NCBI GenBank assembly: GCA_947561715.1
Contig: OX387197.1
Coordinates: forward strand, 4,345,001-4,409,000
Source: Ascidia mentula
Taxonomy: Eukaryota; Chordata; Ascidiacea; Phlebobranchia; Ascidiidae
Direction of reading: 5' to 3'
Length of the DNA stretch: 64,000 nucleotides
Under the pieces are notes generated by a model that did not search any database, was not told where the DNA came from, and saw nothing but the letters and a program-made list of their open reading frames with translations. The position numbers and the translations under genes were made by a program. This document shows positions 7,272 to 64,000 of the stretch, piece after piece. Numbering within the stretch: the first letter of the stretch is position 1; the number at the start of each line of letters is the position of its first letter.

Positions 7272-8721
7272 TCATATAGCATATGCGCACGCTATGGCTG
7301 AATAGTAAGCTAATGAACCCGCCAGTGCAGCGATTATAAGATGAACGAAGCTGGAACCTCTGTAAACTCCACTTGGGAGACCTTCTAAACCATCCGGAAG
7401 CCAGAATGTATAAACCGCCAAGACGTAACAAATAGCTGAAAATTAAGGACAGTCAGTTACACATTGATGCGTTGGTTAAAAATAGACATAAAACCGAATA
7501 TAAACCACTTTTCTGGCCACAATAAAATAGATGACTTTTCAGTGAACATGCCTTGGCACAATTGGAAATAGGCCTACGGATACACAATCTATACGCACCG
7601 GTCACGAAAGACAAAGTCCTTAGACCATAGTACAAGAAGTTGCGTCTTCGACAAAACTCGATGACGAATTCAACCAGTTGAACGGAACCCGATACAACAA
7701 AGGTTATCCAAAAAATATGTCCAGCTTCTAAATGTTCATGAAATGAGTGTAAATTAGGCTTAGTTTCAAACATCCGAACAAACTAAAGTTAGCGTTTAGG
7801 TTATCACCAAAGTATATAGGCCAGGCCTAACAAAAGTCCAACTATACCGTACAAAAATCCATCTATGTGAGGAAATGGATCCATCCATTTAACAGAAGTA
7901 TTGGCTATTGCTATCCCTACAAAACAAATGTATCGGTGTTCGTTAGTCGTCCCAAAACCAAGTGGTGACATAATAGTCCAGTGTTGTGATACTTACTCGC
8001 CACAGTTAACACCAAGTTCATGAGCAGCGCAATGGCTGCGACACTTTTTACTGCATGGGCAAGAAACAACAGCAAGGCTAAAAAATGGCAAACGAGCCCT
8101 CCAAGTAATAGCAAAAGAACACCTCCTCTGGTCTCGTTCAGCATTTCTGAAAAGTGTTGCTGGGAAAATTATTGCGACATTTTCTTACTCAATAGAACCA
8201 GTAGCAATAATTTATCAGGCCAAAAAAATATTACTTAATGCCATAATGTGACTTTTATAGCTAGGTATATTTGTAGCCTTTAAGACTATAGCCTATACGG
8301 ATCTATTATGCAAAACAAAGTAGAATTAATAATGCATAGGCTATGTCAGAAAAGTGCAGCGGCGATGTGTATCCTATATTTCTGTCTTTACAAACTTTGA
8401 ATGAAAGGTTTATAAAAAAAAAGTAACCGCGTTGTTTTCTATACTGTTAACATTGTATACAAGAAAATAATTCGGCGAAATCGATAACATTTACAGCATT
8501 AAATAATTTATGCATTTATTCCAAACACACCTGTACTGTCGTTATAGCCTACCGTTGGATATTCTGCTGCAGCCTTGTTCGTCGCAAAATGCTATCAGAC
8601 CAAGACTAGATTTAGACTGTTCCCTTCTAACCCAGTTCTGTGACAGAATCGCCTTCAAAGCGAAGGCAAGCGATATACTCAGACAAAACCCGGTCCAACA
8701 ATTGTTTTTGTTGAACTCCAT
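7272..8721 (-). CDS. Claudin/PMP22-like multi-span membrane protein (gene 1)
   Basis: Five exons at 8721-8553, 8146-7997, 7916-7848, 7727-7599 and 7435-7272, all junctions phase 1, 226 residues. Exon 1 holds the first span and an extracellular loop with the claudin-superfamily pattern W...GLI..C...C (QNWVRR then SLGLIAFCDEQGC). Exon 2 is a single hydrophobic span with a loop. Exon 3 is a short polar piece containing a possible glycosylation site (NTS). Exon 4 is another span (FWITFVVSGSVQLVEFVIEF). Exon 5 has two hydrophobic parts around DGLEGLPSGVYRGSSF, the family's second-loop pattern. That makes five hydrophobic segments rather than four, so topology is uncertain. Gene 2 at 13.2 kb is a close paralogue with almost identical exon sizes. 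Claudin-like proteins form or regulate junctions, or act as tetraspan adaptors; the specific role is unknown. Confidence 0.75.
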
Positions 8722-13224: not shown

Positions 13225-14543
13225 TCAGCGTGACGGCTGTAATCCAATATAGAAGGCTAACAAACTTGCCACTGCTGCGACCATGAGGTTAATGGAAGCA
13301 GAACCTCTGTAAACAGTATTTGGAAGTCTTTCCATACTTTCAGGTTGCCAGAATGAGTAAACCGCCAGCAAGTAGAATATCGCTAACAAAAATAATACGA
13401 GCTCTTATTGAAATTTACAATTCAAAAATCAACTTGTAATAAAAAAATACGCACTCGTCACAAATGACAGGATCCACTGAATGTAGTAAAATATGTTGGA
13501 TCTGTAACAAAGCTCAATGATTCCTTCAAGTATGTAAACTGCACTTGGGAACACACAGGCATACCAAAAGAAAATTTCAGCATCTTGAATGTAAAAACTT
13601 TGTAAATAATAATAATGATCAACGTATTATTAACACACATTGTGTTTTAGATTGTCAAGTATATGCCAATTTTATGCCAACAATATTACATCAGGCGCAA
13701 ACACTAAAAACGCAAGAAAAACGTAAGAAAAACACAAGAAAAAAGGGAACGGATAACATTGGCACCGCTTGTATTGTCACGTGACCAGGTGTGTAGCGGG
13801 GCGTAACAGTTACAACAAGTTGTTGTAAACCGCTGGAAAGTAGACATATTGCCCCTTGTCATTCACGCAAAATAGTAATACTTCAATAAACGTTAGGGCA
13901 ACAAACTCAACCAGTCTCACCGTACAAAAATAATTGTACTTGAGGAAGGGGATCGAATAGTCCAACTAAAGACGTGTTTATGGCATTCCCTAAAAAAATA
14001 AACGTTTTACCCATATTTATATTACGTTTGTAGCATATATTTTACTTGTTATCTGCGTGACAACCATCATGATGCACGCAATCGATGGGATAGGTCTCAT
14101 AGTGTGGCCAAGGTAGGAAAGTAGGGTTACAAAATGTAAAACGATTCCTCCCAATAGCAAACGCAAAACCGTTACCCTTGTCTCGTTGGACATTTCTAAA
14201 AAAATATTAAAAGTAAGCAAAACGAAGTAGCAAAGTCCTACGTTGCCCTTTGTTACCCTTTAGTCTAAACCAGGATAATATTGCTCTTCAGCTAACTTGT
14301 GAATGAGCTGAATTGAATTCAACCAAACGAACTCTATTACTACTATTACTGTAAATAAAACACATCCAACTTACCATTGGGAATTCTACTGCACCACAGT
14401 CCATCGCAATAACCAATTAGTCCAAGACAAGATTCAGACTGTGCCTTTTTTACCCAGTTCTGAGACAAGACCGCCTTTATTGCAAATCCAAGCGAACCAA
14501 GCAAAAAGAATCCGGTCCAATATTTTCGGTTGTTTGCGTCCAT
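13225..14543 (-). CDS. Claudin/PMP22-like multi-span membrane protein (gene 2)
   Basis: Paralogue of gene 1 with exons 14543-14375, 14195-14046, 13989-13921, 13583-13455 and 13382-13225 (169, 150, 69, 129 and 158 nt), 224 residues, phase-1 introns. Exon 1 shows TGFFLLGSLGFAIKAVLSQNW followed by CLGLIGYCDGLWC, the claudin-type loop. Exon 5 shows FWQPESMERLPNTVYRGSA, matching the family second-loop pattern. The third intron contains an antisense Penelope-like tail. The start ATG is fixed by alignment with gene 1. The extra short exon 3 (DPLPQVQLFLY) is conserved in both paralogues, so it is probably real, but its place in the membrane topology is unclear. Confidence 0.75.
13698..13868 (-). mobile_element. 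Penelope-like element tail, inverted relative to the 9.4 kb copy
   Basis: The reverse complement of this stretch matches the end of the 9.4-9.8 kb fragment closely, including the end of the coding frame and the T-rich tail with repeated CGTTTTTCTTG. It sits in intron 3 of gene 2. Confidence 0.7.
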
Positions 14544-21366: not shown

Positions 21367-21960
21367 ATGAAAACCTTATTTTCGTGTCTGCTGGTTGCTG
21401 TTCTTCTTCTCAGTGTGGAAGGTAAGCTAACCTTACCGTTATCTTATCTAAGTTTAAAGTAACTTATTACTTTATATCTACGGACGCATCAGAAAGTAGC
21501 TCAAAGTTTTCTGTGTCTGGAAAAGAGTTTCTCAGCAGGGGGTTCTCCGAATTCATTACTTGACCAGGTGGTTATCGAACGTAAACAAGTTGAAAAAATC
21601 TGTCCCAGGATCTGTCAACAGATTACATCAACAAATGTTGTGTTGAGTGAGAAACAAATACGAAATAAGTTGCAATTGGTCTGCACACAAATTATCGGTT
21701 TCGATTTGTTTTTATGGTTTCGAGTGAAGTAAAGCAGTATAACCACTCTTGTTATAACAGTCAACAATCCTAATCTTTTATCAGGATGCGGTTCTCCTCC
21801 AACAATGCCTGGGGTCGTCTACTCTCCTGATTACCCAGCATACCCAACTGACTTTAAGGTGGGATACTCGTGCAAACGTCATGGTCGGCTTCTGACAGGA
21901 TCACGGACCAACGTGTGTAAATCCGATGGTCATTGGTCTCACGCATCTCCTACCTGCTAA
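21367..21960 (+). CDS. Secreted single-CCP (sushi) peptide, third member
   Basis: Exons 21367-21421 and 21785-21960, phase 1, 76 residues. Signal peptide MKTLFSCLLVAVLLLSVEG, then one CCP module: GCGSPPTMPGVVYSPDYPAY, TDFKVGYSCKRHGRLL, NVCKSDGHW, SPTC and stop. The coding exon is nearly identical to that of the fourth member 2.4 kb away, while their introns are far more different. This suggests recent duplication with selection on the exon, or gene conversion. AATAAA follows at 22016. Confidence 0.85.
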
Positions 21961-23830: not shown

Positions 23831-24371
23831 ATGAAAGGTTTATTTTCGTGTCTGCTGGTTGCTGTTCTTCTTCTCAGTGTGGAAGGTAAGCAAACTCTAT
23901 CGTAACTTATCTATTGGTAAAACATCTTGTTTTTCCGAAAAAAGGTGGGGTTTCACCAAATTCATTACTTGGCCATTGTCATCGAACCCAAAAGAGTTAA
24001 GACAACCCAACCTAGAATCAACAGATTATATTGAAACAAAATCTTGTGTTAAATGACAAGTAAATTTTACACACCACGTTCCAAATCTACTACACACAAA
24101 TTTTCAGTTTTAAGATGCTTCATTTGATTAAGTAAAAGAAAAAGCACTATAGCCACACTTCTTACAACACTCACCCATCCCAATCATATTATCAGGATGC
24201 GGTTCTCCTCCAACAATGCCTGTGGTCGTCTACTCTCCTGATTACCCAGCATACCCAACTGACTTTGAGGTGGGATACGCGTGCAAACGTCATGGTCGGC
24301 TTCTGACAGGATCACGGACCAACGTGTGCAAATCCGATGGTCATTGGTTGCACCCATCTCCTACATGCTAA
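23831..24371 (+). CDS. Secreted single-CCP (sushi) peptide, fourth member
   Basis: Exons 23831-23885 and 24196-24371, phase 1, 76 residues. Signal peptide MKGLFSCLLVAVLLLSVEG, then a CCP module differing from the third member at only a few positions (VVVYSP, TDFEVGYACKRH, HWLHPSPTC). Four conserved cysteines and the Trp are present. It has the shortest upstream copy of the duplicated segment. Its 3' neighbour is the convergent claudin-PARP gene A. Confidence 0.85.
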
Positions 24372-25273: not shown

Positions 25274-28200
25274 TCACACACTGACCGTGACCCCAACATT
25301 TACTTGAACGCTTGTGCTTGATTGGATTTGCTGTGAGATCTTGCGGTAAGTTATCACATACTTGGGATAAGCGCTCGCATCCTTAAAAACTACAAATAAA
25401 CTAGGATACTTTTCATCATCGACGACGCTGTTGTATGGGCGACGATCTTTTGCAACAGGTGTATCTTGCAATTCACTGTTTCCCCTGCAGTAGAAGCCAG
25501 TCACCACGTCTGCGATTAGCATTTTACGTAAACCGCTTGGTTCCGCTTTGGCGAAGTTATCAGCATAATCAGCCAGTTTTGCGAAATAAACTCCTTTTCC
25601 GAACTTCGTGCCTTACGAAAACAACATTGTTGTGGGAATTAACAGCTGGTATTTGAAAATCATTCATTGCACGGAAGATTAAAACAGGCAATATTTGCAA
25701 CCAAAAGTTGTCTTATCCGTTATATCGGTGTTTCACACTTACACCTTCATTAGGTTTAGAAGCCATGATGTATATGCTTTTCCTCAACAAAATACATTAC
25801 ACGCATTTATTCGTAAATTCCAAAGATTACCGTGTTTGCCAAAGTAGCTTGTGTTGAAACCAGTATTGCAGATTTTGTCGATCGCTTCTTTTCTCGTGCC
25901 ATGAAAAAGCTCGAAAGACACTTTGGCGCCTGGAAATCGCCACCGAAGTTCGCGAGCAGCAAAATTTTTTTCCGTCTGATACTGAAGGAAAAGCTTTCGA
26001 TTTTGAACTCTTTCCACCTGAACATTACAGATTTTTGTCACTTATTGCGAATCGTTACAAGTTGTGGCTAACGTGCTCAAAAACAGAACAACGGGATGCT
26101 AAATGGGCATTTGTTACTTAAAACTAACATTGCGACGTCTTTACCAAACCGCAGAGTGCGTTGTAATTTTTGTGTCGTCCAAGTACTTTTTCATTCATTC
26201 ATTCAAAATTGTTGGCTATTAAATGATTCGGCCGAGCACGAAGGTAATCTCTGGCATAAAATCGAAAAACTCGCTTATTGCATTTGCCCCATTTTAGCGA
26301 CGCCACGTTTTGTATCCGGACACCCTCAACTCTAACTGGCATTCAACGATGCAATAGGACTTGGAAAATTTACTAATTTGAGAAGTGTTTTATGCCTTGC
26401 CATGCACCTCAAGATCGTCCAACACATTAGGCGGCAATGCATTGGTTGCAATGACAGTGAATTGTCGGTATATACTGTACAACGCAAAGCAACAAGGAAA
26501 AAGTGCGTCAAGGTTTGGACCAACGACCTTATAGATAGATTCGTCGGCCGAGACAGGTGCCCATGTACCACTTACGCAGGCAGTAGCACTGCTTTTACGG
26601 TGAAAGGCAGAAAAGAGTGCTTGTTGCAAATAATTGTTTTGAGTAACATTTTGTTGTTTTGGCGAAAGAAAAATATTTTTACCGAAATAACTTCAACTGC
26701 AGAAATTGTGTCCAAGAACTTTCGTTTGACGTGGACGTAATCAGGTTCATCTTTATCAAGAACAATTCGACAATTTTCTTTTCCCTCCAACCGACTCCAT
26801 GTTCTCGGAACATCTGACAAGTCAATAAAAAACCGTACATCAGTTTCTGCTGTGTAATGTTAACAATCCCTTTTTAATCGTTTTCAGAGCAACAGAAAGA
26901 AACAACTTCCTACGTAACTTGCAACGCGATCGACCCTAAGGCATTAGCATACTATGTCACGTGATCTATTCCGCAATCACACTTTGTTCTGTTTCAGATT
27001 TTACCGAACATGGACAAACCTGTGTGAACAGCTTTCCCTGTGACGGGTCTAGGATGGACCCTAGCATGTCGGAGATGCGATGGGCCCCTCATTTCATTCC
27101 CATCATGACTTATTTCTCTCACAGGAATACCTGTGGACACTACTCGATGTTCTGGCTTTGAGATTTCGAAATGTGATGTTGGCAAACCCACGTCGGAATC
27201 CGAGTCATGTTTACCGAGTATCATACACACGTTTGCCACGAGGCACAACACAAAGGCAATTACGACTTGGTGGTAGCTTGTCCCTATGTGCCAAGAGCCA
27301 GCAAGATCTTCCAGACCATTCTCACTACCAAAGACTGCAACTGCGATGAGCAAGCAGCAATCTGTACCAATCATAATGCGACATTGTTTAATATTTTTAT
27401 GAAACTGTATAATTTTGAATAAAATTACATAAAATTGTATTAACGTATGTTTTATTTTATCAAACAATGAAGGTAAAACCAACGTTTCGTCCACCATCGG
27501 GAGAGACTTCCTCAGGGTTATGTCACAACGATAATTCATCAAGCGCATAAACACTAACCCTGAGGAAGTCTCGGCGGATGGTGGATGTAACATTGGTTTT
27601 AATAAACACTTACGAAACTTAAGTGCCAGAAGAGCAATTCCTATTAATTACTATGCCTGGCTGGAAAAATAGCCGTATAAATGAAGGTTTTGTTTTCAAA
27701 GAAAAACCTTACTTGTTACGATCAAGGATGATATCCCAACACGCTTAAATATGCTTCTCAATCTTAACAAATAGAGGATGTAACTGATGAAGCCAAGAAA
27801 CTGCGAGAGGGTTCCTAAAATCATCATGGACGCGACGGCATTTCGAGCGTGGTTTGCAACTATACAAACAAACTCTTTAACCATATTGCATGTTTAAGTT
27901 AAGAAAGCTGGTGCAAAATTTTCAATTTTATAAAAGGCCATTTTGTGAACCATATATTTATTCAAACAGGCGTAGATACTGTATATGTTTATATTTCTGC
28001 AAAGAATTCAACCAACCTTCATCCGATGTCGTGATTAGACACGATCCGTTCTTGCAAATTGCAAATAACCCGAGTGTTGTAGAGTTTGAGTAAGCCCATT
28101 CTGAGGAGGTGGTTGATATTACGGTGAGCAACAATGACGTTGCCAGGAAAGGTCCGGTTAAAACTGAAGGTCGATTCCAGTCCTCAAGAGAACATTCTGA

Positions 28201-29260
28201 CAATTTCAAACAGCAAAATTACCTTTCATTCTTAGAACGTTTGTTATGCAACAGTTGATGTAAGTTATACAATATTTACCGTTAAATAGGAAAAACGGGC
28301 ATGACAAAACATTTGCCACCAATGCCAAGGTGACAAAGATGAAGCCTGATCCGCGATACCAACTATCATCCAGTCCTTCTAACCCAAGGTCACTTCCAAA
28401 CACGCCGACAGCAATTAGGAAGAAAGCAACTGCAAAAAACATTTATTTTGTTAAAAAGGCATTCAGCATTCCTTGACTGATTGAAGATTATTTCCTTCGA
28501 GCTCATCCCGTGAAGATTTTCAAAAATGTTATTATTTTGTAAGCCATCGTCTTTGTCAAGACTATAACCAGGAGTTTATAAAGTAGATTTGGTACAGTTA
28601 TAAAAACCAGAAAACCACGGAAAGCATAGTTTTATTGCAAGTAAATATAAGTTACACTTGTTCCTCCTAAGTTTAATCTTCCGACCCAAATCACTAAGAA
28701 CGGGATGTCAATGTGCCAGGCACCCTTCATACACAAACTTATCATCACAGCGATAGTTCGCAAATTTTTCGAATCGCATTCAGTTCTACAAATTGCTGTT
28801 GGCAAATCTATGTCGTGTAGAAAAAAAACTATTATCAGAGAACCAGTGTTAGGACTGAGTTTAAACAAATTCAACGCACTCGCAACAGCTATAGGGATCC
28901 GTTGCGCCTTGCCAAACTTTTTCTTGAACGCGAAGAAGAAGAATATTGACAGGGAGACGGACTGGGCAATAATTCCAAGCAACAACATGGCTGATACCGC
29001 TTTCCTTGAGTGACTTTCCATTTCTATTAAGTACGAAGTAATTAAAAAAGACATTAGTTGTGCGAGAGAACTACAAACAAACCTAGAGAAATTCCTTCGC
29101 ATGAGAGTCCATCGCAAAAAGCAAACAATCCCAGAGTCTGACCGGACAAAGATTTTCTCACCCAGTCTGTAGTGACTGCAGCTATGACAGCCAAGACGAG
29201 TGAGACGGCCGCCAGCATGCCGGTAAAAATGAACGAATTCTCCTCATTTAACCTTCCCAT
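25274..29260 (-). CDS. Eight-span claudin-like protein fused to a PARP catalytic domain (gene A)
   Basis: Nine exons: 29260-29083, 29023-28880, 28429-28280, 28196-28017, 27859-27713, 27361-27005, 26813-26683, 26017-25831 and 25611-25274; 603 residues in one frame. Exons 1-3 and 4-6 are two homologous claudin-like units, each with one exon for span 1 plus loop, one for span 2 and one for spans 3-4. Loop-1 patterns are TDWVRK..LGLFAFCDGLSC and SEWAYS..LGLFAICKNGSC; loop-2 patterns are GLEGLDDSWYRGSGF and GLEDLAGSWHIGTSY. A polar linker (about 317-385) leads into a PARP domain: VPRTWSRLEGKENCRIVLD, VERVQN, FHGT, GKGVYFAKLADYADNF, MLIADVVTGFYC and YPSLFVVFKD. The triad is H468-Y500-L563. Lack of the catalytic Glu predicts mono-ADP-ribosylation, as in PARP10/14. 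The PARP domain should face the cytoplasm. All exon phases agree. The fusion is inferred from splicing phase and open frames, not from a transcript. Confidence 0.85.
27474..27601. repeat. Inverted repeat in intron 5 of gene A
   Basis: Arms 27474-27520 and 27555-27601 (47 nt each) match at about 41 positions around a 34-nt spacer. The arm reads CCTGAGGAAGTCTC and CGTTTCGTCCACC. That resembles end sequences often seen with Penelope-like elements, but the family assignment is tentative. Confidence 0.75.
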
Positions 29261-32177: not shown

Positions 32178-34847
32178 ATGAGTAGATTTAAGGAAACGTA
32201 TTTGTTCATTATTACTGGCATGTTAGCAGCCGTTTCGTGCACACTTGCTGTTATAGCTGCAGTCACTACAGATTGGCTGAGAAAATGTACGACAAGTCAG
32301 ACTCTGGGACTCTTTATGTCATGCGATGGATTCTCATGCGGAGGAATTCCTCAAGGTTTGTTTGTGATTCGCTTGCACATAAACATAATTTTTTATTAAT
32401 TTACATTTAATAGAAATGGAAAGTCACTCAAGGAAAGCGGTATTGGCCATGTTGTTGCTTGGTATTATTTTCCAGTTCATCTCCCTGTTCTTATTCTTCG
32501 TCTTCATGTGCAAAAAAAAGTTTGACAAGAAAACAAAATGGATTCCATCACTTTTTGCGAGTACGGAAAATCTTGTTTACTAGCTAATTCACCAATCATA
32601 TAATTGTTTTTGTATGTTTTGTAGTGTGCTAATGCACAGAAATGTTGTGCTGTAATGCAAGATTTGTATGACCATAAACTTGAAACGCACGTGTTCATCA
32701 TCCTAACACAAAAACACTTAAATTCACAGATGTTAAACAAGATTACTTGGATAAAATTTTTATCTACATATCGCTATATTTCTAATACTTTTAATAAGAA
32801 AGTAATCAAATATTAACACTCGAATATTTGTACTTTTTTCAAAAAAAGGACAAATTATCATGTAGACATATTTTGTCAATTGTAGTCGTTTGTTTTACGA
32901 TTGTTGTCGGCGTGTTTTTGAGTCCGGTGGGACTAGAAGGACTTGAAGGGACTTGGAATCGTGGATCAGGCATCAATTACGTCATCGCCGCGTTGGTTGC
33001 GAGTTTTCTATCCTGTATTCCTGCCTTATTTAGATGTAAGTTATTGATTTCTTTTTGTGCTAAATTAAACAAAATACCGATTTGATAAGGAAAATAGCAT
33101 TAACACATTAACAGGCACTATTCATACTTCAGGTTTAACTAAAGACCCAGGACAAGACTTGAATCGTTCTTCAGTCTTTGCTGGTCCTTTACTGGCGACT
33201 TCCCTCACCGTGTTAGTTGTGTCTGCCGTGTCTTCACAGTGGGCCTTTTCACCAATCAACTCACAAACCATTGGACTCTTTTCCGTCTGCGATGCAGGAA
33301 CCTGTCGACTTTTGCCAACAAGCAAACGTAGGAAATGTTAACGTAATAGAAATAAGTTGAACCACATTTTGTTCCAAGACTAAATCTTACACTTAACATC
33401 ACTTGTTATTGGGTCTTCTATTTTGTTGCCAACATTTAGAAATTTACTGCGTGGCAACTTCATTAAATTCTGTTTATTTTTTTCGACATGTTTGTAAAAA
33501 GCAAACGAATCTACTGCACTACAGAGACAAAAACAGAACATCTTCAGACGCCATATTTTTTTTTGCAAATGAACCCCTGCCAGCAAAACCCAGCAGTCGT
33601 TTTATTTCATATTGTATGTTTAGTGATAGCAAACCCGTTGCGAATGGTCGTTGCTTCCGCGACGATTTTGGCGACCCTGTTACAATGCATTTGTATTGTC
33701 TTCTACATCACCTTCCTGTTATGCAGACGTATTCAGCTGAAGGGCGTGGGGATTCTTTGTTCAATACTTTCTAGTGAGTTTGACATTTAAGCAGTATTGA
33801 CCTTTATACTTACATTTAAAAGATGTGGTTACAAAACTTCTGATGCAAACTGTTAAAGTGTAGTCAAAAATATTACTTTTGGAACAACAATATGGTTACA
33901 AAATTAACATTAAATCGGTATGTCGCTTTGGATCCATTGATTGTGTTCGACATTCTTGGTAAAACGTGCATGATAAAGAAATAATATTCTTTATTTCGGT
34001 ATAATATGTCGATGAATTGCTGGTGCACTGACCTTTAAAAACATTACGCTTTTTCAATGAAAGACAAGCTCTTCAGCTCCTCGAAGTGGTGAAGACATAA
34101 TTATGCCTTGTTCATAATATATTTTTATCTCGGCAGATTGCTTCCTACTCATAGCAGTCGCAAGTTTTGGCAGCGCAAAGTCGTTGGAAGATTTGTCTGG
34201 CATTTGGGAGAGAGGGACAAGTTACGATGAAGCGATTGCTGCTTTGTTCTTGGGCGTGTTGGCCTCTTATTACTTTATACTGGCTAAAACTGACGGTGGA
34301 TCGAAGCAAGTTGAGGAGAAGTACGAATTACGGGAGAACACGAGACTGGAGGGAAGCAAAACCGAGGACACTCGAGCTCAAACCGCCCTCAACACTGAAA
34401 CAGGAGGTGAGTGTTTTGTTGAGTTTTAAAAAAAACTTGAGTAAGACGAAACAGAGTGTGTTTTCATACACAATGCCTGTGAAGATAAAGCAAAGCACTG
34501 TTAATGATAAACGTGATCCCAGTCGATACACGCTGACTTGTTTGGTCTATGACGATGTAGATGACGTCAACCTTGGCCACGATAAAAAAAACACGTGATT
34601 GTCAGACGAAGTCAATCACGATTACAACGAAAGTCGTTAATTATCTTAATTATCTCTTTGTCACACGTAACTGCAACCAAACTTTCAAAGTACTCGCCTT
34701 TTAAAACAATGACCTATAGGCTTCGTGGGGTGTTTTAACGGTAATGCAGTAGTGGTGGCATGTTTTGTAAATCTGGAGTGTATACCGTAACATATCACAT
34801 TTTCCTTTACAGCCATATCTGTCAAAAACACCAACAACCAACACTGA
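32178..34847 (+). CDS. Eight-span claudin-like protein without PARP domain (gene B)
   Basis: Seven exons: 32178-32355, 32414-32560, 32886-33035, 33133-33327, 33624-33773, 34137-34406 and 34813-34847; 374 residues, all junctions phase 1. It has the same two-unit plan as gene A: loop-1 patterns TTDWLRK..LGLFMSCDGFSC and SSQWAF..IGLFSVCDAGTC, loop-2 patterns GLEGLEGTWNRGSGI and SLEDLSGIWERGTSY. After the charged tail of exon 6, the next exon adds AISVKNTNNQH and a stop instead of the WDxM-type start of a PARP domain. No PARP exon was seen between it and gene C, which converges from the other side. It is the only plus-strand member. It could be a regulator or decoy partner of the fused forms, but that is inference. 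The last exon is the least certain part. Confidence 0.78.
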
Positions 34848-35437: not shown

Positions 35438-38400
35438 CTAAACACCGTTTCGGTAGGTTATAACGTATTTGGGATAAGCGCTCGCGTCTTGAAAAACTAC
35501 ATATAATGTGGGATCGTTCACATTATCCACAACGCTGTTGTAGTGCTGACCATCATCTGCAAGAGGAGTATCCTGCATTTCGCCGCTTCCCTCGCAGTAG
35601 TATCCGGTAACAACATCAGCAATCAGCATTTGACGTAAACCGCTGGACTCTTCCGTAGCGTAACCATCGGAATAACCGGCCGTTCTTGCGAAGTAAACTC
35701 CTTTTCCGTACAGCGTGCCTTTGCAAAATGGAGTTATTGTTGGGGTTATCCTTTTTGATCAATTTACAATTTTACAATTTATTTGCACACTTATGTCTGT
35801 GATTTCTTTCTGGCGAAATTGCTAATACGATTACCATTTACTCCAAAATAACTTCTGTTGAAACCGGTTTCGCAAATATGGTCGATCGCTTCTTTTCTAG
35901 TTCCGTGAAAAAGCTCACGAGATACTCTGACGGCATTGAGTCTGCGCCTTTCAAGTTGAAGAGAAACAAACTTTTTTTCAACTTCATATTGCACGAAGAG
36001 TTTTGGGTTCTGGACTCGTTCGACCTGAAAACCAAAACAATAGCCTCTTGCATTACAACCCATTAAACTAGTGCAAAACTAGGTGGTAAAGATACTTATT
36101 ACGAACTCACAATTTCGTGTGCTACGACTATGTTTCTACATATTGGTATTTGGAATAAACATGTTGCATCACAACTTTTTTAATTAAATTGCATGGAAAA
36201 ATAAAGATTTACCGAAACAACTTGTGCAGTGTTCAGAAATTTCTCATAGACTCTGATGTACTCTCGGCTGTTCTTTTCGAGAATAACTCTTCGGCAGACT
36301 TCTTCTCTCTCCATTCGGATCCATTCTCTTGGAACATCTGAAATGTTTGGTAAAAGAATCGTTCTCGCGTTACCAAAACTTCTAGGACTTAGGTAATCTG
36401 AAGCTGCGTAAAAGTTTTACTTCAAACAAGTTTTTCATGACACAAAATTTTATAAATCAAAAATCAAACAAACCTTTGTTAACAGTTCTTACAAGGGTGT
36501 GTCTACGGTCGTTCTCCACTGTTTCCCTGTTTTCACCCCGCTCCATGCCTTCTGTGTATGGGTATGACGGGCACGTGATAATATAACTTTCATATTTTCC
36601 TAAAATCATGCACACGTTTGCTACGACACAGAACACAGAAGCAGCTATCGCTTGATGGTAGCTTGTTCCTCTGTTCCAGGTTCCCACGAGATCTTTCAAA
36701 CCCTTTCCACTGCCAAAGACTGTGACCGCACTAAGTAAACAGCAATCTAAAGCAACCATAGCGTTTAGTATTAGGTTCTTCTTTCGTCGCTATACTGTTA
36801 CGTAAGAATTGTATTATTCCAAAAAAATTACATGAAATTATGGTGGCTAAAAACCAATTACTCTTACTTTCATCAAACAATGAACAAGAAAGTGAAAACT
36901 TAGAACCTACTTGAAACAATTAAACAAGCAATCCCAAAACGCTTTAAAATAATCCTCGTCTTTAACAAATAGAGGATGTAACAAATCAAGCCGAGACACT
37001 GGGAGAATGTCCCCAAAATCATCATGGACGCAACGGCTTTTCGAGAGGAGTTTGCCATAACTGCATAAACAAGTTCGATAACCCTAATTCAGGCTATCTT
37101 TTCAAAGTTGCGTTAAATAGAACAGAACAATTTTGCATTTCTTTATTGTAAAATGCATTTGACTGAAAGTATCTCATCAATATTTCAGTAAAAATTGTGC
37201 CTTTATCTAAGCATAGCAGTTTGATCTGTGCATACATTTTACTTAAATAATGCTCCTTTTTCGAATTAACTTACGTTCGTCCGAAATCGTGATTTGACAC
37301 AAATCGTTCTTGCAAATCGAAAAAAGCCCGAGCGTGTATAACGTGAAGCTTGAGTAAGTCCACTCTGAAGAGATGGTTGATATTACGCTGAGCAGCAATG
37401 ACGTCGCCAAGAAAGGTCCAGTAAAAACCGACGGACGATTCCAATCATCCAAGTACCAACATCCTAAAAATTAAATAAATTACATACAAGAGTAGCGGCG
37501 TACCTGAATACGAGGTTAATTTTATTGTTGTTCTGTTCTATCGCTGATCACCAGGAGGTCAAAGTTACCAAGATCACATCACAAACCCCTTACCACAATA
37601 ATCAGTGGTGTTTTCTTGCCACTAGCCTCAATGATGCAGTTACAATAATATGGTATATGGTCAACTTCAATAAGTCCGAGGCAAGTGTTTGTGTACCTGA
37701 GTTGTTGACCTTATCGTTTTGTCGCTGCCCATGCAATTTAATTTTTTGTCTATTTTATAATTTAGGTGCATTGAAGTTCTATTGCCCAAGATAAAGATGA
37801 TTTAATTTCATTATTGTATGCTGTGTCTGTGTTTTCTCGGACACGCTATAGTGTGTATAAAGGCGAGATGTACTTTAAGAACACACTTTTGTGTTTTTGT
37901 AAAGTTAATATAGAGACTTCTACGGGATGCTTACTTTGATACGCAAGTCATGAATACGCGATTCCAAGACATGTAAAAAAATCTTCACATTTATATTTAC
38001 CGTTTTTGATAATAAACACACAGGACAGAGCACTTGCCACCAATGCGGAGATGATGTAGATGAAACCGGATCCGCGATACCAACTATCATCCAGTCCTTC
38101 TAACCCAAGATCACTTCCAAACACACCGACAGCAATTACGAAACAAATAGCTGCAATGATAATGTTCAGCTGGCGTGGGCCATAAGGCTGTTGTGAATTA
38201 ATGTACACTTAAAATATTTATAAATATGGTGCATTGGCCATACCAGCTACAAGCAACTGAAAAATACAGTTCCAAATTTGCTGGAGCTTTAGTTTTGCTT
38301 TTAATTCGTGGCCTCGAAGTTAAGACAAAGGAGTTTGCCGACCAGAATGACCCCCCAACTTGCCAGTAAACCGGCATAACAACTTATGGCATCTTACACC

Positions 38401-42384: not shown

Positions 42385-45300
42385 TCACATATATGTAATT
42401 ATATACTTTGGATAGGCACTTGAGTCACGAAAAACCACAAATATTGTTGGATATGATGTTGTATCCACAACACTGTCATATAGTTTTCCGTTTTGCTTGG
42501 TTGGAGCAGCCTTCATTTTACTGCTGCCACGTCCGTAATGTCCAGTAATCACTTCAGCTAGAATCATTCGCTTGTGACCAAATCTGTCAGGGTTCGCGAA
42601 ATTGTTGGAGTAAGAGGCATTTCGGGCAAAATACACTCCATTTCCGTACAAAGTTCCTGAGAAATTATTTAACAGGACATAAAAAGACAGTGACCCCAGT
42701 TTTATAGTTTTTTGCCGCCACTAAGGTCATTTCTGCTCCCTAATTAATCTGTAACACTGTAACAAATAAAAGCTGCCTTGACAGAATTCAGTAAAGTAAC
42801 TTTAAAGGACGCAGCTCTCTGAAGGTGAAACAAATTTACTGACATTATTGTCTGTGAAAACAGTTTGAAAACTATTATATCTATAATTTTGTGGCAAAGA
42901 GAAACATTTGTTGGGAGCCAGTCACATAAAAAACATTTATCACCGTTTACTCCGTTGTAGCTTCTATCGAACCCGTTCTGACAAATGTTTTGCACGGCAT
43001 CGCTGGTTGTACCATGGAATAGTTCTCTTGTTACCAGCATTCTGTGATTCCCCTCCGACTTTAATTGATCTTTAATGTGAAATTTGTGGTTCTGGAACTG
43101 TTTGTGGAGATGGACATTTTGAACTCTTTCAACCTAAATTAAAAATTTGCGTATTAGCATATGACTAAGTATGTCTTAAAAATAAATAATAATTATGCCT
43201 TAATAATAGTGCAGTCAAGAGTTTTTCCAACTTGTCGTGCGACCGCTCTAAATTCGTTTGAAGACCTTCGCACTGGTACAAGTTTTTGAGTGTCCTCACC
43301 CATTTTGTCCCAATTTTTAGGAAATTCCGGCTCTGAAAATATTTTATTCTTTTGTAATTTACACCAACTGTTAACGTTCTTCTGTCTTCAGGTATAAAAA
43401 ATTTGCTTTTTTTTATCTATTTCACTGTAGCTTTCACTGTGTGGTTCTTCATGGTGAAACTTTGCCTGTGATTTTGGTACGATTTTTCTGTTGATCAAAA
43501 ATTATGTTCCGCTTAAAAGTACAATAATTCTAATTACATCAACTTATCTAGAGTGTGTTGTAGTTTCAATCGTTTCCAGTTCCTGATTTAGTAACATTAC
43601 GACATACTTGTACAAACCTGTCCAAAGAGCTCATGCTGGGTAAAAGTTTTGACTGAACATTGTTACTTAAATATTCATACTATTGTTCTATTCTAACATT
43701 TATGAATCGTTACACAGACCGCACAAACATTTTTGCTTAAACCTTTCTATGCGCACCTTTTGACAAAGTCTTGTTAAAAATGATCACCAAATTAATATTG
43801 CCATGAAACAAAAAAATTATATGTTACAAATCTAATAAACCTTTGTCAACAGCTTTTACATGGGTGTGTCTACGGTCGATCTCCACTGTTTCCCTGTTTT
43901 CACCCAGCTCAATTTCTTGTGTTGCCATATCACTTTCATATTTTCCTAATATCATGCACACGTTAGCTACCACACAGAACACAGAAGCAGCTATCGCTTG
44001 ATGGTAGCTTTTTCCTCTGTTCCAGGTTCCCACGAGATCTTCCAAACCCTTTCCGCTGCCAAAGAGTGAGACCGCACTAAGTAAACAGCAATCTACAAAA
44101 ACCAGAGCGTTTAGTATTCTTTCGTCGCTATACTGTAACGGAAGAATTGTATTATTCCAAAAAAATTACATAAAATTAAGGTGGCTAAAGAACAGTTACT
44201 CTTACTTTCATTAAACAATGAACAAGACATCGAAAAGTTAGAACCTACTTGAAACAATTAAACAAGCAATCCCAAAACGCTTCCAAATAATCCCCGTCTT
44301 TAACAAATAGAGGATATAACAAATCAAGCCGAGACACTGGGAGAATGTCCCCAAAATCATCATGGACGCAACGGCTTTTCGAGAGGAGTTTGCCATAACT
44401 GCATAAACAAGTTCGATAACCCTGATTCAGGCTATCTTTTCAAAGTTGCGTTAAAATAGAACGGAACAACTTCCCAATTTTTTATAGTAAAATGCATTTG
44501 ATTGAAATTATCTCATAATATTTCAGTTAAAATTGTGCTTTTATCTAAGCATAGAAGTTTGATCTGTGCATAAATTTTACTCATATAATGCTCCTTTTTC
44601 GAATCAACTTACGTTGGTCCAATATCGTGATTTGACACAAATCGTTCTTGCAAATCGAAAAAAGCCCGAGCGTGTGTGGCGTGAAGCTTGAGTAAACCCA
44701 CTCTGAAGAGATGGCTGATATTACGCTGAGCAGCAATGACGTCGCCAAGAAAGGTCCAGCAAAAACCGACGAAGAATTCCAGCTGTTCATGTTGCAACCA
44801 ACTGACAATTAAATAAATTACATACAAGTAGCGGTGTACCTGAATACGAGGTTAACTTTATTATTGTTCTGTTGTATCGCTGACCACCAGGAGATTAAAG
44901 TTACCAAGATCACATTACAAACCCCTTAGAGAAGTTACCACAATAATCACTGGTGTTTTCTTGCGACTAGCCTCAATGATACAATTACAATACTATGGCC
45001 AACTTCAATAAGTCCGAGGCAAATGTTTGTGCACCTGAGTTGTTAACATTATCGTTCATCGGTACCCATGCAATTATTTTTTTGTCTATTTATTCAGGCG
45101 CATTCAAGTTCTATTGCCCAAAATAAAAATGATTTGATTTCTTGATTGTATGTGGTAGAAAAATATCTGTGTTTTTTCGATACGCTAGTGTGTAAAAAGG
45201 CGAGATGAACTTTAAGAACACACTTTTGTGTTTTCGTAAAGTCAGTGTAGAGACTTCGACGGGATACTACGCAGAATCATGAATACGTTATTCCAAGTTT

Positions 45301-49896: not shown

Positions 49897-50030
49897 CTGA
49901 ATGATATCCCGAGGTAGGGTTTTTTTAAATCGACTGATAACCTTTCCAAATTCGCTTGAAGAACCTCGCACTGGCACAAGTTTTTGAGTGTACTCATCCA
50001 TTTCGTCCCAATTTTCAGGAAACTCCAGCT
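49897..50030 (-). pseudogene. Orphan PARP exon (WDEM type)
   Basis: A 134-nt exon, flanked by CAG acceptor and GCATAA donor, coding LEFPENWDEMDEYTQKLVPV and on to PRDIIQ. It matches exon 7 of gene D in length and sequence, and the flanking intron DNA up to about 50160 also matches. No membrane exons upstream and no catalytic exons downstream are present, so it is the broken edge of the tandem duplication. Confidence 0.78.
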
Positions 50031-58821: not shown

Positions 58822-59015
58822 ACTGACGGATTTGACCGAAGAAAATGATTTTGGCTAAAATTGTTACTGGACATTACTGCGCTGGGAAGAGTGAATTGAT
58901 AGCTGACCCGTTAAAGTCAAACGGAAGTCTTTCAGACATTGTTATGAATACCATTGGATATCCAACAATATCTGTGTTTTTTCCTGGCGATAAAGTGCCT
59001 ATCCAACATACATAA
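58822..59015 (+). pseudogene. PARP catalytic-domain fragment
   Basis: From 58836 the frame reads KKMILAKIVTGHYCAGKSE, then IGYPTISVFFPGDK and a stop. It matches the last PARP exon of gene D (MILAEVITGHYG, YPTIFVVF). The beginning (DGFDR) is in another frame, and no FHGT or VYFA exon is found upstream. This is a relic. Confidence 0.72.
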
Positions 59016-59462
59016 TAACTTACGAACAAAATACAAAAGAAATATAAGTCCATTTTAAGTTCTAAATTATTGGCCCGAGAACATGGAATTACAAAGGTAC
59101 TTACGTACAAAAAGGCACTTTTTTACCCACACATAGTAATACTTTTGGTCCCAAAATCAAAGCACTGAAAACGACAAACATGAGTCAACTGTGGGCAACT
59201 ATGGAACTTCTTCACCTTCGGAGGAATGCAAATCCAATGGTGGAGCTTTATGAACCTTCACGTCGATTTCCTGTAAACGCAAATGGAAACTTCCAGTTTC
59301 GCTTGTACAAATCATTTACTTTAAGCTACGTGATGCGAGCATAAGTTCTGTACAACTGCGTTCTGTAATGGCATGACAATTAATCACTTCGAATCTCGTT
59401 CTCGCTTATCCTATGTGCAATACAATCTTTGCAATCCAATTTTGAAACAGATCAAACCTTGC

Positions 59463-59543
59463 TCGTGTTCGACTTTCGGCAGAGTTGTCGCCCTATTTCC
59501 ATCCTCATGTTCGTCGCCCTGGGGTGCAGCCGTTTCTGTAACA
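59463..59543 (-). other. Exon-like segment, possible continuation of the GD-repeat gene
   Basis: On the minus strand, between a CAG acceptor and a GTTTGA donor, it reads ETAAPQGDEHEDGNRATTLP in phase 1. A similar acidic exon-like piece is at 60228-60293, and a terminal piece with a stop lies near 59250-59276. Joining them to the gene upstream requires skipping an in-frame stop, so this is uncertain. Confidence 0.3.
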
Positions 59544-60519
59544 CACAGAGAATGTATTATAATTGTTACACGGTTTTTCATTACTATGTTGTCATTGAAT
59601 CATGGCATCTGATGTAGTTGGTGTGCAAACAACTGTCCGAAATGTTGGGTGCTGTTCACGTACAGTATTTGTGTTCAATAACAAGCTTTTTGAGCGGCTA
59701 CAGGCAAATGTTATTAGTAAACGGACGATAATATGAGCAACTGATTTGAATGTTTTCAGTAAAACTACGTTCTTTTCCTAATGGCAGGCCTACTCCATTC
59801 AAAACACATTTTCGGGTTGGCGTCACTTGTTATTGGTTACACTTTCATAAGGAAACCGTTGTAGTAAAATTCAATACTTTATAGTGTCAAAATATTTGAA
59901 GCATATACTTCTAGAGGGAAAACTACCGGTCGGTGCATTCAGTTATCACTTTAATGTTTTAAATATTTGAAGCATATACTTCAGAGGGAAAAAGCTACTT
60001 TATGAGAATGCGTCCTTCAGACCTATTTCACACTTTCAGTCCTACTTCACTTGTTTCCACTTGCTGGGCCCGGTCAGTGCATTCAGGTACCACTTTAATG
60101 TTAAACGCAGTGTATAGTATTGCAAACGTCCTTGCTTAACAGCAGACTTATAGCTTTTTCTTTCCTCTTTAGAATCTGTACGTGATGCAACGATACAAGT
60201 TTAACCCGACGCAATGATGCTCATACCTGTAGTTGGAGCTTGGTCTGAAGTATGCCCAGGGACTGGGGCGTTTTCAGGCTGATCACCATCTGTATTAAGT
60301 GTTTTTACTTCAGAGATAGCCCAAAATATGCAGTAATGTAAATTGCGTGTAAAGATATTTTGGAAAAAGAAAAATTTTGTGAACACAGAAAATATTGTTG
60401 TTTGGTATCATCATATCTGCAGTCCATTAGCTGATACTTTGCATATTAACGCTATGAATTTCTACGCATTAACTACACCCATACTATAAGACCCAACAAT
60501 CGTCTTACTCATTTCATTT

Positions 60520-61518
60520 TCAGTTTCTTGCTTGCTTTCTTCATCCTGTTGAGTTTGTATAGTTGATGAAACACCTGTTGTATAGAACTTATATCAGACA
60601 CAAGTGGATTCAATCATGAAAATACAATGACATGATGCAAGTGTTGCTCGGCACGCGTAAATACGTCAATGCTAACCCTGATAGACTGTGGCCCCATCCC
60701 CAATATTTCCGGCGTCGACAGTTGCATTGGTAAAATCAAATTTTGGTCCATTGTACTTGTCACCCACGTGCTGATGATCTATAACAACACATTACAAAGC
60801 ACAACTTACAGAAAAAAAATATCATAAAACCTCAATTCATACCCTTGTAGAATTTTTTTCCTGGACTTGATCCAGCACCGGATTTTTGATCGCTTTTCCT
60901 GACTCTTTTCCTCTCAGCCTCATTTGCTTTCTCAGGTGCGACTGCTGTTTGCGTAAAGTGTTTTAGCCATTTTATACTTTTGATCAGGAAAATTACTTAC
61001 AACGTTTTGCAGGTTTTGAACTATTCGACCTGCTTTCTTGAGCTGGCAACCGCTTATTTTGAGAACCTTAAATAATTTTTAGGACACTGTTTTTGTTAAA
61101 CATCGATACCTTAATGAAGCATTAAGAATGTTACAGTTCCATTAAATGTGTTGTTCTGCATGCAATGTAGGTTACAGACAAAGCAGTAAAAGTACCTTGG
61201 TGCACAATGCCATCGTCACCGACATTTCCAGCTTTTATGCTTGCCCCTGAAAATCCATACTTTGGTCCTGCGTAACTATCCCCGATACGTGTGGAACCTG
61301 AAAAGCGACACAAAAAGACTCACATGTAACATCTAGTAACTCGGTTTCAACCAGAAAACGGGATTTGCCTTTCCAAACTTACCTTCATTAATTTGATTCA
61401 CGGTTATATCTTTTTTGGATGCAATAATTGTTGTTTTTCCTATGATTTGGGCGTTATCGCTGATGTTAACAGACATTGCACCAACAAATGCTATTTCAAA
61501 GCTGTTTGAACTTTGCAA
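60520..61518 (-). CDS. Unknown protein with two GD-rich 30-residue repeats
   Basis: Exons: about 61518-61383, 61297-61196, 61066-61001, 60941-60843, 60778-60677 and 60575-60520 (stop). The first has an ATG at 61476 (MSVNISDNAQIIGKTTIIAS), but an acceptor at its left edge means it may not be the first exon. Exons 2 and 5 are both 102 nt and encode homologous repeats: GDSYAGPKYGFSGASIKAGN with VGDDG, and GDKYNGPKFDFTNATVDAGN with IGDGA. Between them are basic, Ser/Lys-rich exons (EAERKRVRKSDQKS) that look disordered and could be nuclear-directing. I do not recognise the family; the repeats could form a small beta structure. It lies between two PARP relics or genes, and its exon style resembles the N-terminal exon of the PARP gene at the right edge. 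Confidence 0.5.
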
Positions 61519-63401
61519 CTAACAGAAATACTACAATATTTGTTCAATATTTTTATTTACTCCTTTTTGCAGGTTATTTGACATACATGATAGTAAAGAA
61601 ACAATATTTCAGAAAAGGGTAATTGAATTGTTTTGCATGTGTGCTAGAGAAGTGCAACAACACACAATTTATAAAAATATTCTTTTCATTATGGCATTCT
61701 ATTGCAGCCAATTGTCTTCAGGTAATTAATTCGAAATGTCACAGCCCATTTTTACTTACATTTAAATTCGTTTTTGATTCAAAATTCCGAAGAAAGTATA
61801 AAACCGTATTAAATATCCAACTACATCAAAAATTCGTGATGGAAATCTAACCAAACTTGATTGGCCGCCATCCGAACTAGCGTGGGCTGTGATGCGTAAC
61901 GTTTTTTCCAATAATGGCGGGAAGCGGGTAAGAAGCGTGACGCGAGCCCGCTTTAGGCGTCATTTGTAAACCACTTGCAAACACCGCTTATTTGAACCAG
62001 GTGCATAAACGTGAATTACCTTTTTGCAAACATTACCAGAGGGTAGCTAATTTAAAAAAATCACCACTATCTCAAAATTTACGACCAAACAAAAGCACGT
62101 AAATCAAGCTTTCAAAAAGTATTGGACTTGTTTAAAAACACAGAAGGCCGCCGAAGCCTATACAGTTAAGCGCACACCCTCATTGTAAACACGGTTTAGA
62201 GGTGGTCCGACACATACTTGTTTCGATTGATGTTGGTTCAAACATATGGTCCCAAGCTGTTCTTTTCAAAAACAATCTTATACCGTCCAACTATCGAATA
62301 AAATCAATCTTATCTTATTCAGCTAAGGGTGGCTATCCTGAATTCAGCGATATCTGGGAAAACTAATCTTTAATCTTATTATGTATGCTATGGAATGAAC
62401 TAAAACTTAACTGATTCAGTTTAGGGCTACGCTAGACATACAAAACGAGAGGGGGTTCCCCAGTTTTCTTCCCCAAGGAAATTGAACGGGTTTTTCCCAC
62501 GAAAATTCACCGCACGTTTCAAATTATCGCGGGAGCAAAAAGGATTCTATAGAGATCGTATTTTACTGATATATACTTAAAATTACTGAATAATTACAGT
62601 AAGTAGCACCCAAACTAATGGCTGTGGTAATAACTAAATAAAGCTGCTCGCAGAAAAGATGCATTACGTGCACTAGTTATGGCGGTAGTATTCTCATTAT
62701 GTTTATTCAAATATACAGCATACAAAGTTTTATTGCCATGTTCGCGTTCACGGACTGCGGCAATTGGCTTGACTTTTCCTTCTAAGGCCGTTGAGGTGGA
62801 TTAAAAGTGACGTCACTTCCAAAGCAAAAAGCGTAAAAAGACCTGTGCTTCAGGTCGTTCTGATGGAATACGTGGAATCTCTACTGCTTTTGATTACTTT
62901 TGCGCTATTCAGCAGTCAATTCTTGACAGATACAGAGATTTAAAAAAAAATTCTAGGGAGCGGAAAGTGGTTTGGCACTTGATTGAAAGTGACGTCACCC
63001 TCAAGGCAAAGAGCGTAAAAAGGCACGAGTTTCAGGTCATTCTGATGAAATACGTGGGACTTCTGTGGCGGTGTTAATGCGAAATACTTGTCAAGTAAAA
63101 TATTTTGCAAAATAATGTAACCTGTCATAATATAAACCCAAAAGAATCTCAATTGTATAGTTTAAACCTTGTTGTGAAATACTGCTCAATGTTGCGGTAC
63201 TTGCCAGAATGACAATAGTTGCCATGTTGTATGTCATATTTTGACAGGGTTGTTTCCCGAATAATTCACCTACATTTCAATAGATTCCAGTTTATGTAAT
63301 TTTTATCAGTGTATAAACCCTAATTCTCATATTTTGCAAATGGTTGGGACAGCACTTGTTGCGGATCTAGTGATAAGTCGGAGCGAGATCTGAGAATTCA
63401 A
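61519..63401. other. Intergenic with CRE-containing direct repeats
   Basis: No gene recognised. It includes two related segments of about 85 bp described separately. Confidence 0.4.
62798..63068. repeat. Two related segments, each with a perfect TGACGTCA palindrome
   Basis: 62798-62883 and 62977-63068 share AAAGTGACGTCAC, AAGCGTAAAAAG or its variant, and CAGGTC.TTCTGATG.AATACG. TGACGTCA (the CRE core bound by CREB/ATF proteins in animals) is at 62808-62815 and 62990-62997. They lie 0.5-0.7 kb before the first visible exon of the right-edge PARP gene. Confidence 0.6.
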
Positions 63402-63474
63402 GCTCCCGGTGAGGCTTGAACTCACGACCCTGGGCTAACCAGGCCCAACGCTGTACCAGACCTGCATTGTATCG
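63402..63474 (-). tRNA. tRNA-like sequence, probable SINE head or tRNA pseudogene
   Basis: On the minus strand a perfect T arm (GTGAG-TTCAAGC-CTCAC) and a 5-bp anticodon stem with a 7-nt loop (CTGGTTA, anticodon GGT) are visible. The 5' acceptor side does not pair with CGGGAGC and the D arm is weak. It therefore looks like a tRNA-derived repeat rather than a working tRNA. Confidence 0.5.
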
Positions 63475-63537
63475 GCATATTGCCACAGGAACACTTTTTG
63501 TCTGACTGAAACTTCAATCGTTGCCAGGTATAACGGA

Positions 63538-64000
63538 GGAAGATGGTGATAGCGCTTCAGAGCAAAGGACGAGTGGGCCCGAAGTTAGATTGAAAACTTC
63601 ACAACTAACAAACATCAGAGAGGGTCGCTTCAACAACGGAGCCACACGTAAATATGATATTGTATGATGTAGTTTACTACTATGGCATATGAACAGTTAT
63701 AGCAACCATATTGGATCAGTGAATCCAAGCTAAACGTATTGAGAGTTTCTGTGTCAAACTGAAAACCTTTTCACGCAGAAACTTACATCACTATCTCCAG
63801 CCAACTTTTTTTAACAGAGACATTCAAATAATCGATTGCTGTAAAAAAACGATGAGCATTTAATCAGGCAAGTTATGATTTCTCGCTTTTTTGCAGATCT
63901 TCCAATTGATTGGGATAAAATGGATGGACAACCTCAAAAACTAGTGTCTTTAAGACATTTTTCATTGGAGTTTAAACGTGTGGTTAGACAAGTTCAAAAC
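63538..64000 (+). CDS. PARP-family gene, internal exons, cut by the window end
   Basis: Two exons are visible: 63538-63647 (acidic linker, ITEEDGDSASEQ and NIREGRFNNGATR) and 63897 to at least 64000 (LPIDWDKMDGQPQKLVSLRH). They join in phase 1. The second matches the WDxM-type first PARP exon of gene D and of the orphan exon. The catalytic exons with the H-Y motifs should follow beyond the window. No membrane-span exons are seen immediately upstream, so the N-terminal partner, if any, is unknown. Confidence 0.7.

Follow-up and report, generated by a model that had tools for sequence, protein, structure and literature searches.

Genes that join claudin/PMP22-like membrane units to a PARP catalytic domain: a predicted protein family in the ascidian Ascidia mentula

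Introduction

Exons of a claudin-like membrane protein are followed on the minus strand of an Ascidia mentula contig by exons of a PARP catalytic domain, which raises the question of whether the two sets belong to a single gene, referred to here as gene A, whose product would carry an enzyme as the tail of a membrane protein, or to two neighboring genes that have been read as one. The window analyzed is the whole 64,000-nucleotide stretch of contig OX387197.1 from 4,345,001 to 4,409,000 (assembly GCA_947561715.1), and coordinates without a contig prefix refer to it. A reading of these letters alone (the sequence-only reading) had proposed a single fused gene with a frame of 603 residues. Here we describe the organization of gene A, its relatives in the window and elsewhere in the genome, the affinities and history of its two halves, and the alternatives to a fusion.

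Organization of gene A

The spliced model of gene A confirms the coordinates 29260-25274 (minus strand) and joins nine exons into a single open frame, although the frame is 598 residues plus a stop codon in length rather than 603. The predicted product begins with a tandem pair of claudin-like four-span units and continues through a linker into a catalytic domain of the PARP14/15 type, with the parts arranged as follows:

Exons 1-3, 29260-29083, 29023-28880 and 28429-28280, minus strand: first claudin-like four-span unit, including the start codon (from the model, splice sites and hydropathy)
Exons 4-6, 28196-28017, 27859-27713 and 27361-27020, minus strand: second four-span unit and predicted cytosolic tail
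Intron 6, 27019-26814 (206 bases), minus strand: phase-1 join between membrane half and PARP half
Exons 7-9, 26813-26683, 26017-25831 and 25611-25274, minus strand: PARP catalytic domain (PF00644, 71.4 bits)

Exons 1-3 and exons 4-6 are two copies of one four-span unit. All eight introns are GT-AG and fit in phase, as had been claimed, and every junction is in phase 1 except that between exons 7 and 8, which is in phase 0; exon 6, matching in phase, stops 206 bases short of exon 7. Just downstream of the gene lie two similar Sushi-repeat open reading frames (21733-21960 and 24153-24371, plus strand), each of which scores above the Pfam cut-off.

Related genes in the window

Three relatives of gene A are present in the window:

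Gene B, 32178..34406, plus strand: paralogue with two claudin-like units, between A and C
Gene C, 38964-35438, minus strand: nine-exon plan as in A, 559 residues, two claudin-like units followed by PARP
Gene D, 46019-42385, minus strand: nine-exon plan as in A, 552 residues; membrane half close to that of C, PARP half of another lineage

A phase-1 donor chosen by eye marks the end of the gene B model, and a profile search of the window finds no PARP exons after it. The junction of exons 6 and 7 falls at 36474/36337 in gene C and at 43841/43332 in gene D. Intron 7 of gene D (43199-43133) is GC-AG, a class with 556 members among 113,879 Ciona introns (PMC2760879).

There are also more fragmentary or distant relatives. 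A stretch at 49900-50025 (minus strand) resembles exon 7 of gene D and is possibly a remnant, exons 8 and 9 not being found beside it, and an exon-9-like PARP fragment lies at 58839-58982 (plus strand), where no exon 7 or 8 was recognized. Two more distant, single-unit claudin-like genes are located at 7308-8715 and 13255-14543 (minus strand), and no PARP was found beside them. Upstream of the PARP at C1:4408.9-4410k, hydropathy reveals no claudin-like exon in 59100-63950 of the window.

Claudin-like and PARP exons elsewhere in the genome

A profile search of the genome reveals six further loci, on contigs C1, C2 and C70, at which PARP exons come after claudin-like exons in the same orientation. 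Full models were obtained for three of the six, and these have no internal stop and GT-AG introns that are in phase. The loci are:

C1:4411.6-4413.7k, modeled as C1:4411626-4413736: 7 exons, 420 residues, one claudin-like unit, a linker exon and PARP
C1:6518.9-6523.1k: claudin-like then PARP exons; exon 7 not found at 6518-6523k
C2:7188.8-7192.4k: claudin-like then PARP exons; only one full claudin-like unit found
C2:7214.3-7218.6k, modeled as C2:7218605-7214318: 16 exons, 739 residues, two claudin-like units, a macro-like stretch and PARP
C70:3774.1-3778.4k, modeled as C70:3774100-3778402: 10 exons, 693 residues, two claudin-like units, a long glutamine-rich coil exon and PARP
C70:3858.4-3861.8k: claudin-like then PARP exons

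The single unit of the C1:4411626-4413736 gene has no Pfam claudin match and is seen only by the family's own profiles. When 16 claudin-like clusters (including three weak clusters in the window, and two at C70:3788k and 3798k that rest on one search) are compared with 44 PARP places on C1, C2 and C70, using a distance of 4 kb that was picked post hoc, a PARP follows on the same strand within that distance in nine of the 16, lies upstream in two, and is on the opposite strand in two. The recurrence of the same order and strand at other loci indicates that the arrangement of gene A is more than chance. The sequence-only reading had described one fusion gene; the reading of A as a fusion is supported, and A is one of a gene family. 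From the exon plans, this is a lineage-expanded family of predicted genes, in which claudin-like exons are located upstream of a PARP or macro-PARP end and joined to it via phase-1 introns.

The membrane halves

The similarity of the membrane halves to claudins is distant. Gene A as a whole matches Claudin_2 at 15.9 bits against a cut-off of 29.1 (E 0.012), and its first unit matches PMP22_Claudin at 20.8 bits against a cut-off of 26.7 (E 0.00039); gene C is likewise under the cut-off for Claudin_2 (18.5 bits), and for gene D Pfam lists no claudin match. Both cut-offs are passed by one of the five whole proteins scanned, the C2 member (PMP22_Claudin 37.9 against 26.7, Claudin_2 33.1 against 29.1). 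When single units are scanned at E up to 1, using nine units that represent A, C, D and two further modeled genes, five match Claudin_2 (best 7e-5) and three match PMP22_Claudin (best 9.6e-7). A tryptophan, an LG pair, a first cysteine and a later arginine are invariant in all nine units, and GLF and a second cysteine are present in eight. Claudins carry GLW, within the loop signature W-GLW-C-C, and GLW is found in none of the nine. By these resemblances, the predicted membrane half is a divergent relative of the claudin/PMP22 proteins. Of the label 'claudin' that the sequence-only reading had used, the kinship holds, as does the PARP domain at the other end, but gene A alone falls below the Pfam claudin cut-offs, and 'claudin/PMP22-like' is therefore the better wording.

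Profile searches of the PDB with the membrane units give no significant match, the best being LHFPL4 (E 0.052), MOSMO (0.077) and CACNG1 (0.36), and chance matches to ribosomal proteins have similar scores. Canonical claudins were also considered as a source: there are seven PF00822 matches elsewhere in the genome, six of them above the cut-off, and none lies within ~200 kb of the PARP matches listed.

Hydropathy predicts eight spans in A, nine in C, two of which overlap, and eight in D, two of which again overlap so that seven are distinct. The loops that follow spans 2 and 6 of gene A have five and four basic residues, respectively, and no acidic ones, which would place these loops and the tail inside, although the loop after span 4 breaks the charge pattern with one basic and three acidic residues. 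The topology of gene A is accordingly to be read as a prediction from charge and hydropathy.

The PARP halves

All five whole proteins scanned match PF00644 (PARP) above its cut-off of 26.7 bits: A as listed above, C at 74.8, D at 86.1, the C2 member at 76.2 and the C1:4411k member at 88.0. The closest solved structures to the catalytic domain of gene A are PARP14 (E 5.7e-30) and then PARP15 (2.6e-28), and the histidine of its LFHGT, the tyrosine of its GVYFA and the leucine of its SLFVVF motifs align with identical residues of PARP14. For gene D the closest are PARP10 (6.2e-34) and PARP12, with PARP15 and PARP14 near behind, and its histidine, tyrosine and isoleucine align with those of PARP10. 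We take these histidine, tyrosine and hydrophobic positions in A and D to be the PARP active-site triad, of the kind that marks a mono-transferase. In the C70:3774100-3778402 gene, a glutamate (PTEYIIF) occupies the third active-site position, where A has leucine.

Pfam matches across the genome number at least 77 exon matches for PF00644 and at least 69 for Macro, and many of the Macro matches listed adjoin PARP clusters on C1, C67 and C73. Large expansions of PARP and macro exons are seen at C1:3.7-3.9 Mb, C1:7.2-7.5 Mb, C70:3.48-3.86 Mb and on C73. Among the at least 69 Macro matches listed, C70 has none and none adjoins the C2 genes, and A, C and D have no Macro match in Pfam at E up to 1. 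The C2 member has a Macro match of 20.2 bits that is just under the cut-off of 22, and it is mainly this gene that suggests that the PARP half was derived from a macro-PARP.

Selection and exchange of PARP halves

Comparison of A and C indicates purifying selection on both halves, with a dN/dS of 0.30 in the membrane half (dS 0.62) and 0.20 in the PARP half (dS 1.22); the linkers of the two genes are too diverged for dN/dS to be estimated. Genes C and D are much closer in their membrane halves (dS 0.105), where a dN/dS of 0.63 implies that constraint is weak or recent, and are saturated in their PARP halves. Their DNA is 86-92% identical through exon 6 and over the first 38 bases of C's intron 6, at which point the match ends; the break in homology thus lies within intron 6, and the phase is preserved across it. 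On the PARP tree, D groups with the C1:4409k and 4413k genes, and C with A. The simplest reading is that C and D differ by an exchange of the PARP half via the phase-1 intron, a module swap.

The tree has 31 rows, nine of which are labeled as fused, and fused and unfused PARPs are intermingled on it. The fused label needs five changes, four of them forced by starred branches, compared with a mean of 8.0 when labels are shuffled (8 of 500 shuffles were as low as five); these counts carry a long-branch warning for A, C and the C1:6518k gene, and 'unfused' is a label taken from the available sequence only. A single origin of the fusion was considered and set aside, since five changes imply several gains or losses, and we do not claim one origin.

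One gene or two

The principal alternative to a fused gene is an operon of two genes, in which a claudin-like gene ends just past exon 6 and a PARP gene is trans-spliced at exon 7. In Ciona about 20% of genes are in operons, in which neighboring genes directly adjoin with no DNA between them, and gene models often fuse such genes in error (PMC2760879). The 16-base Ciona spliced leader (printed in PMC7986045), followed by GTA and then A or T, has 1,679 exact copies in the A. mentula genome, and the reversed pattern has none; among the first 100 places listed, an array that begins at C1:15239662 has a spacing of ~720 bases.

The gene structures bear on this alternative in both directions. First, if intron 6 were retained, the membrane frame would end 8 residues later in A and 5 residues later in both C and D, as expected of a gene that terminates there, but the 63 codons between the last span and the exon-6 donor of A contain no stop (P = 0.013 at local base composition), which agrees with the earlier claim that the membrane part is open up to its last donor, and the corresponding 40 codons of C (P 0.063) and 33 of D (P 0.10) are open too. 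Second, a trans-spliced PARP gene would need a start codon after the acceptor, and C and D have one in frame early in exon 7 (at offset 23 in C and 29 in D). In D this is the first ATG, but in C it is preceded by two that are out of frame, and A has none that is usable: in its PARP part of 218 residues the first in-frame ATG is residue 137, beyond the active-site histidine and tyrosine, reading back in frame from exon 7 reaches the upstream stop before any ATG, and the ATGs before residue 137, including the first, are out of frame. The PARP part of A would therefore be producible only as the tail of a longer product. The statement of the sequence-only reading that the PARP part has no start codon of its own thus applies to A and fails for C and D, and the early ATGs of those two genes make the argument specific to A. 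Third, exon 7 retains a phase-1 acceptor, although none would be required if it were a first exon. Fourth, gene D has an AATAAA 16 bases ahead of its exon-7 acceptor, as a gene that ended before exon 7 might, and A[AT]TAAA is present in the last 50 intron bases in two of five introns before exon 7 (those of D and the C1:4411k gene) and in five of 40 others, from few introns in five genes (Fisher P 0.17). Finally, the two halves of gene D differ in their history, which separate neighbors could show as well. The presence of a spliced leader makes an operon possible for C and D but hardly for A, and taken overall we consider it unlikely.

An assembly artefact, or chance adjacency of two expanded gene families, is highly improbable: local amplification of both the claudin-like and the PARP families makes chance neighborhoods likelier, and seven of the 16 claudin-like clusters lack a PARP within 4 kb downstream, but order and strand are the same on three contigs, phases fit in all six modeled genes, and the nine downstream same-strand placements compare with two and two for the others. 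The reading of gene A as a claudin-PARP fusion is supported by its open phases, by the missing PARP start codon in A, and by the recurrence of this plan in its paralogues.

The proposed protein and its relation to known systems

Read as a fusion, gene A would give rise to a single transcript and very probably encodes one membrane protein, whose predicted order from a cytosolic N terminus is a pair of claudin/PMP22-like four-span units, a linker and an ADP-ribosyltransferase of the PARP14/15 kind, the last two on the cytosolic side. The claudin-like part would probably anchor the enzyme at the membrane or at a site of cell contact, its outer loops would perhaps sense neighbors or ligands, and the cytosolic PARP part would mono-ADP-ribosylate itself or cytosolic proteins in its vicinity. 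The sequence-only reading went further in suggesting that ADP-ribosylation would be placed directly at a junction-like membrane protein.

Each part of this predicted protein has known counterparts. In its catalytic domain it resembles PARP14 and PARP15, the clade 3 mono-ADP-ribosyltransferases, and the C2 member retains a macro-like stretch before the PARP as well; unlike them, it has claudin-like units in place of the RRM, KH and most or all macro domains. A PARP tied to a membrane, as predicted here, is also seen in PARP16, which has a C-terminal transmembrane region, and in a clade 3 protein of a sponge, whose PARP is preceded by an N-terminal transmembrane domain (PMC4245714), but in contrast to these single-anchor proteins the membrane part is polytopic, with tandem claudin-like units, and the enzyme is PARP14-like. 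Like members of the claudin/PMP22/LHFPL superfamily it has four predicted spans per unit; W, LG, C and R recur across the nine units compared, and differences from the superfamily are its GLF, its closely spaced cysteines, its tandem units and its C-terminal enzyme. What would be new is the membrane architecture of a clade 3-type PARP.

The sequence-only reading knew of no claudin-PARP fusion, and this agrees with the literature: no such protein is described in the titles or abstract openings among the matches listed in open-access work on claudins, PARPs and tunicates. Two unrelated papers mention 'claudin' as well as 'PARP catalytic domain', in one of which the sentence on claudin is itself unrelated, and the word 'claudin' does not occur in the available text of the PARP papers checked for it.

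In vertebrates, PARP14 and other clade 3 PARPs evolve fast and with positive selection, and they are linked to interferon and antiviral defense (PMC13224862). More tentatively, and with rather less than even confidence, we suggest that the family could represent diversifying polytopic receptor-enzymes, in which claudin-like loops sense or make contact, the cytosolic output is of the PARP14 type, and new members originate when the enzyme half is swapped via a phase-1 intron. Such PARPs may serve immunity, a role that for A. mentula is a guess from their kin and from the size of the family.

If the fusion is real, a member of the vertebrates' sister group would carry ADP-ribosylation as part of a polytopic membrane protein, and the family would offer a direct handle on the coupling of contact or barrier proteins with ADP-ribose signaling. 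In genes C and D, module exchange would appear to have been caught within a single intron.
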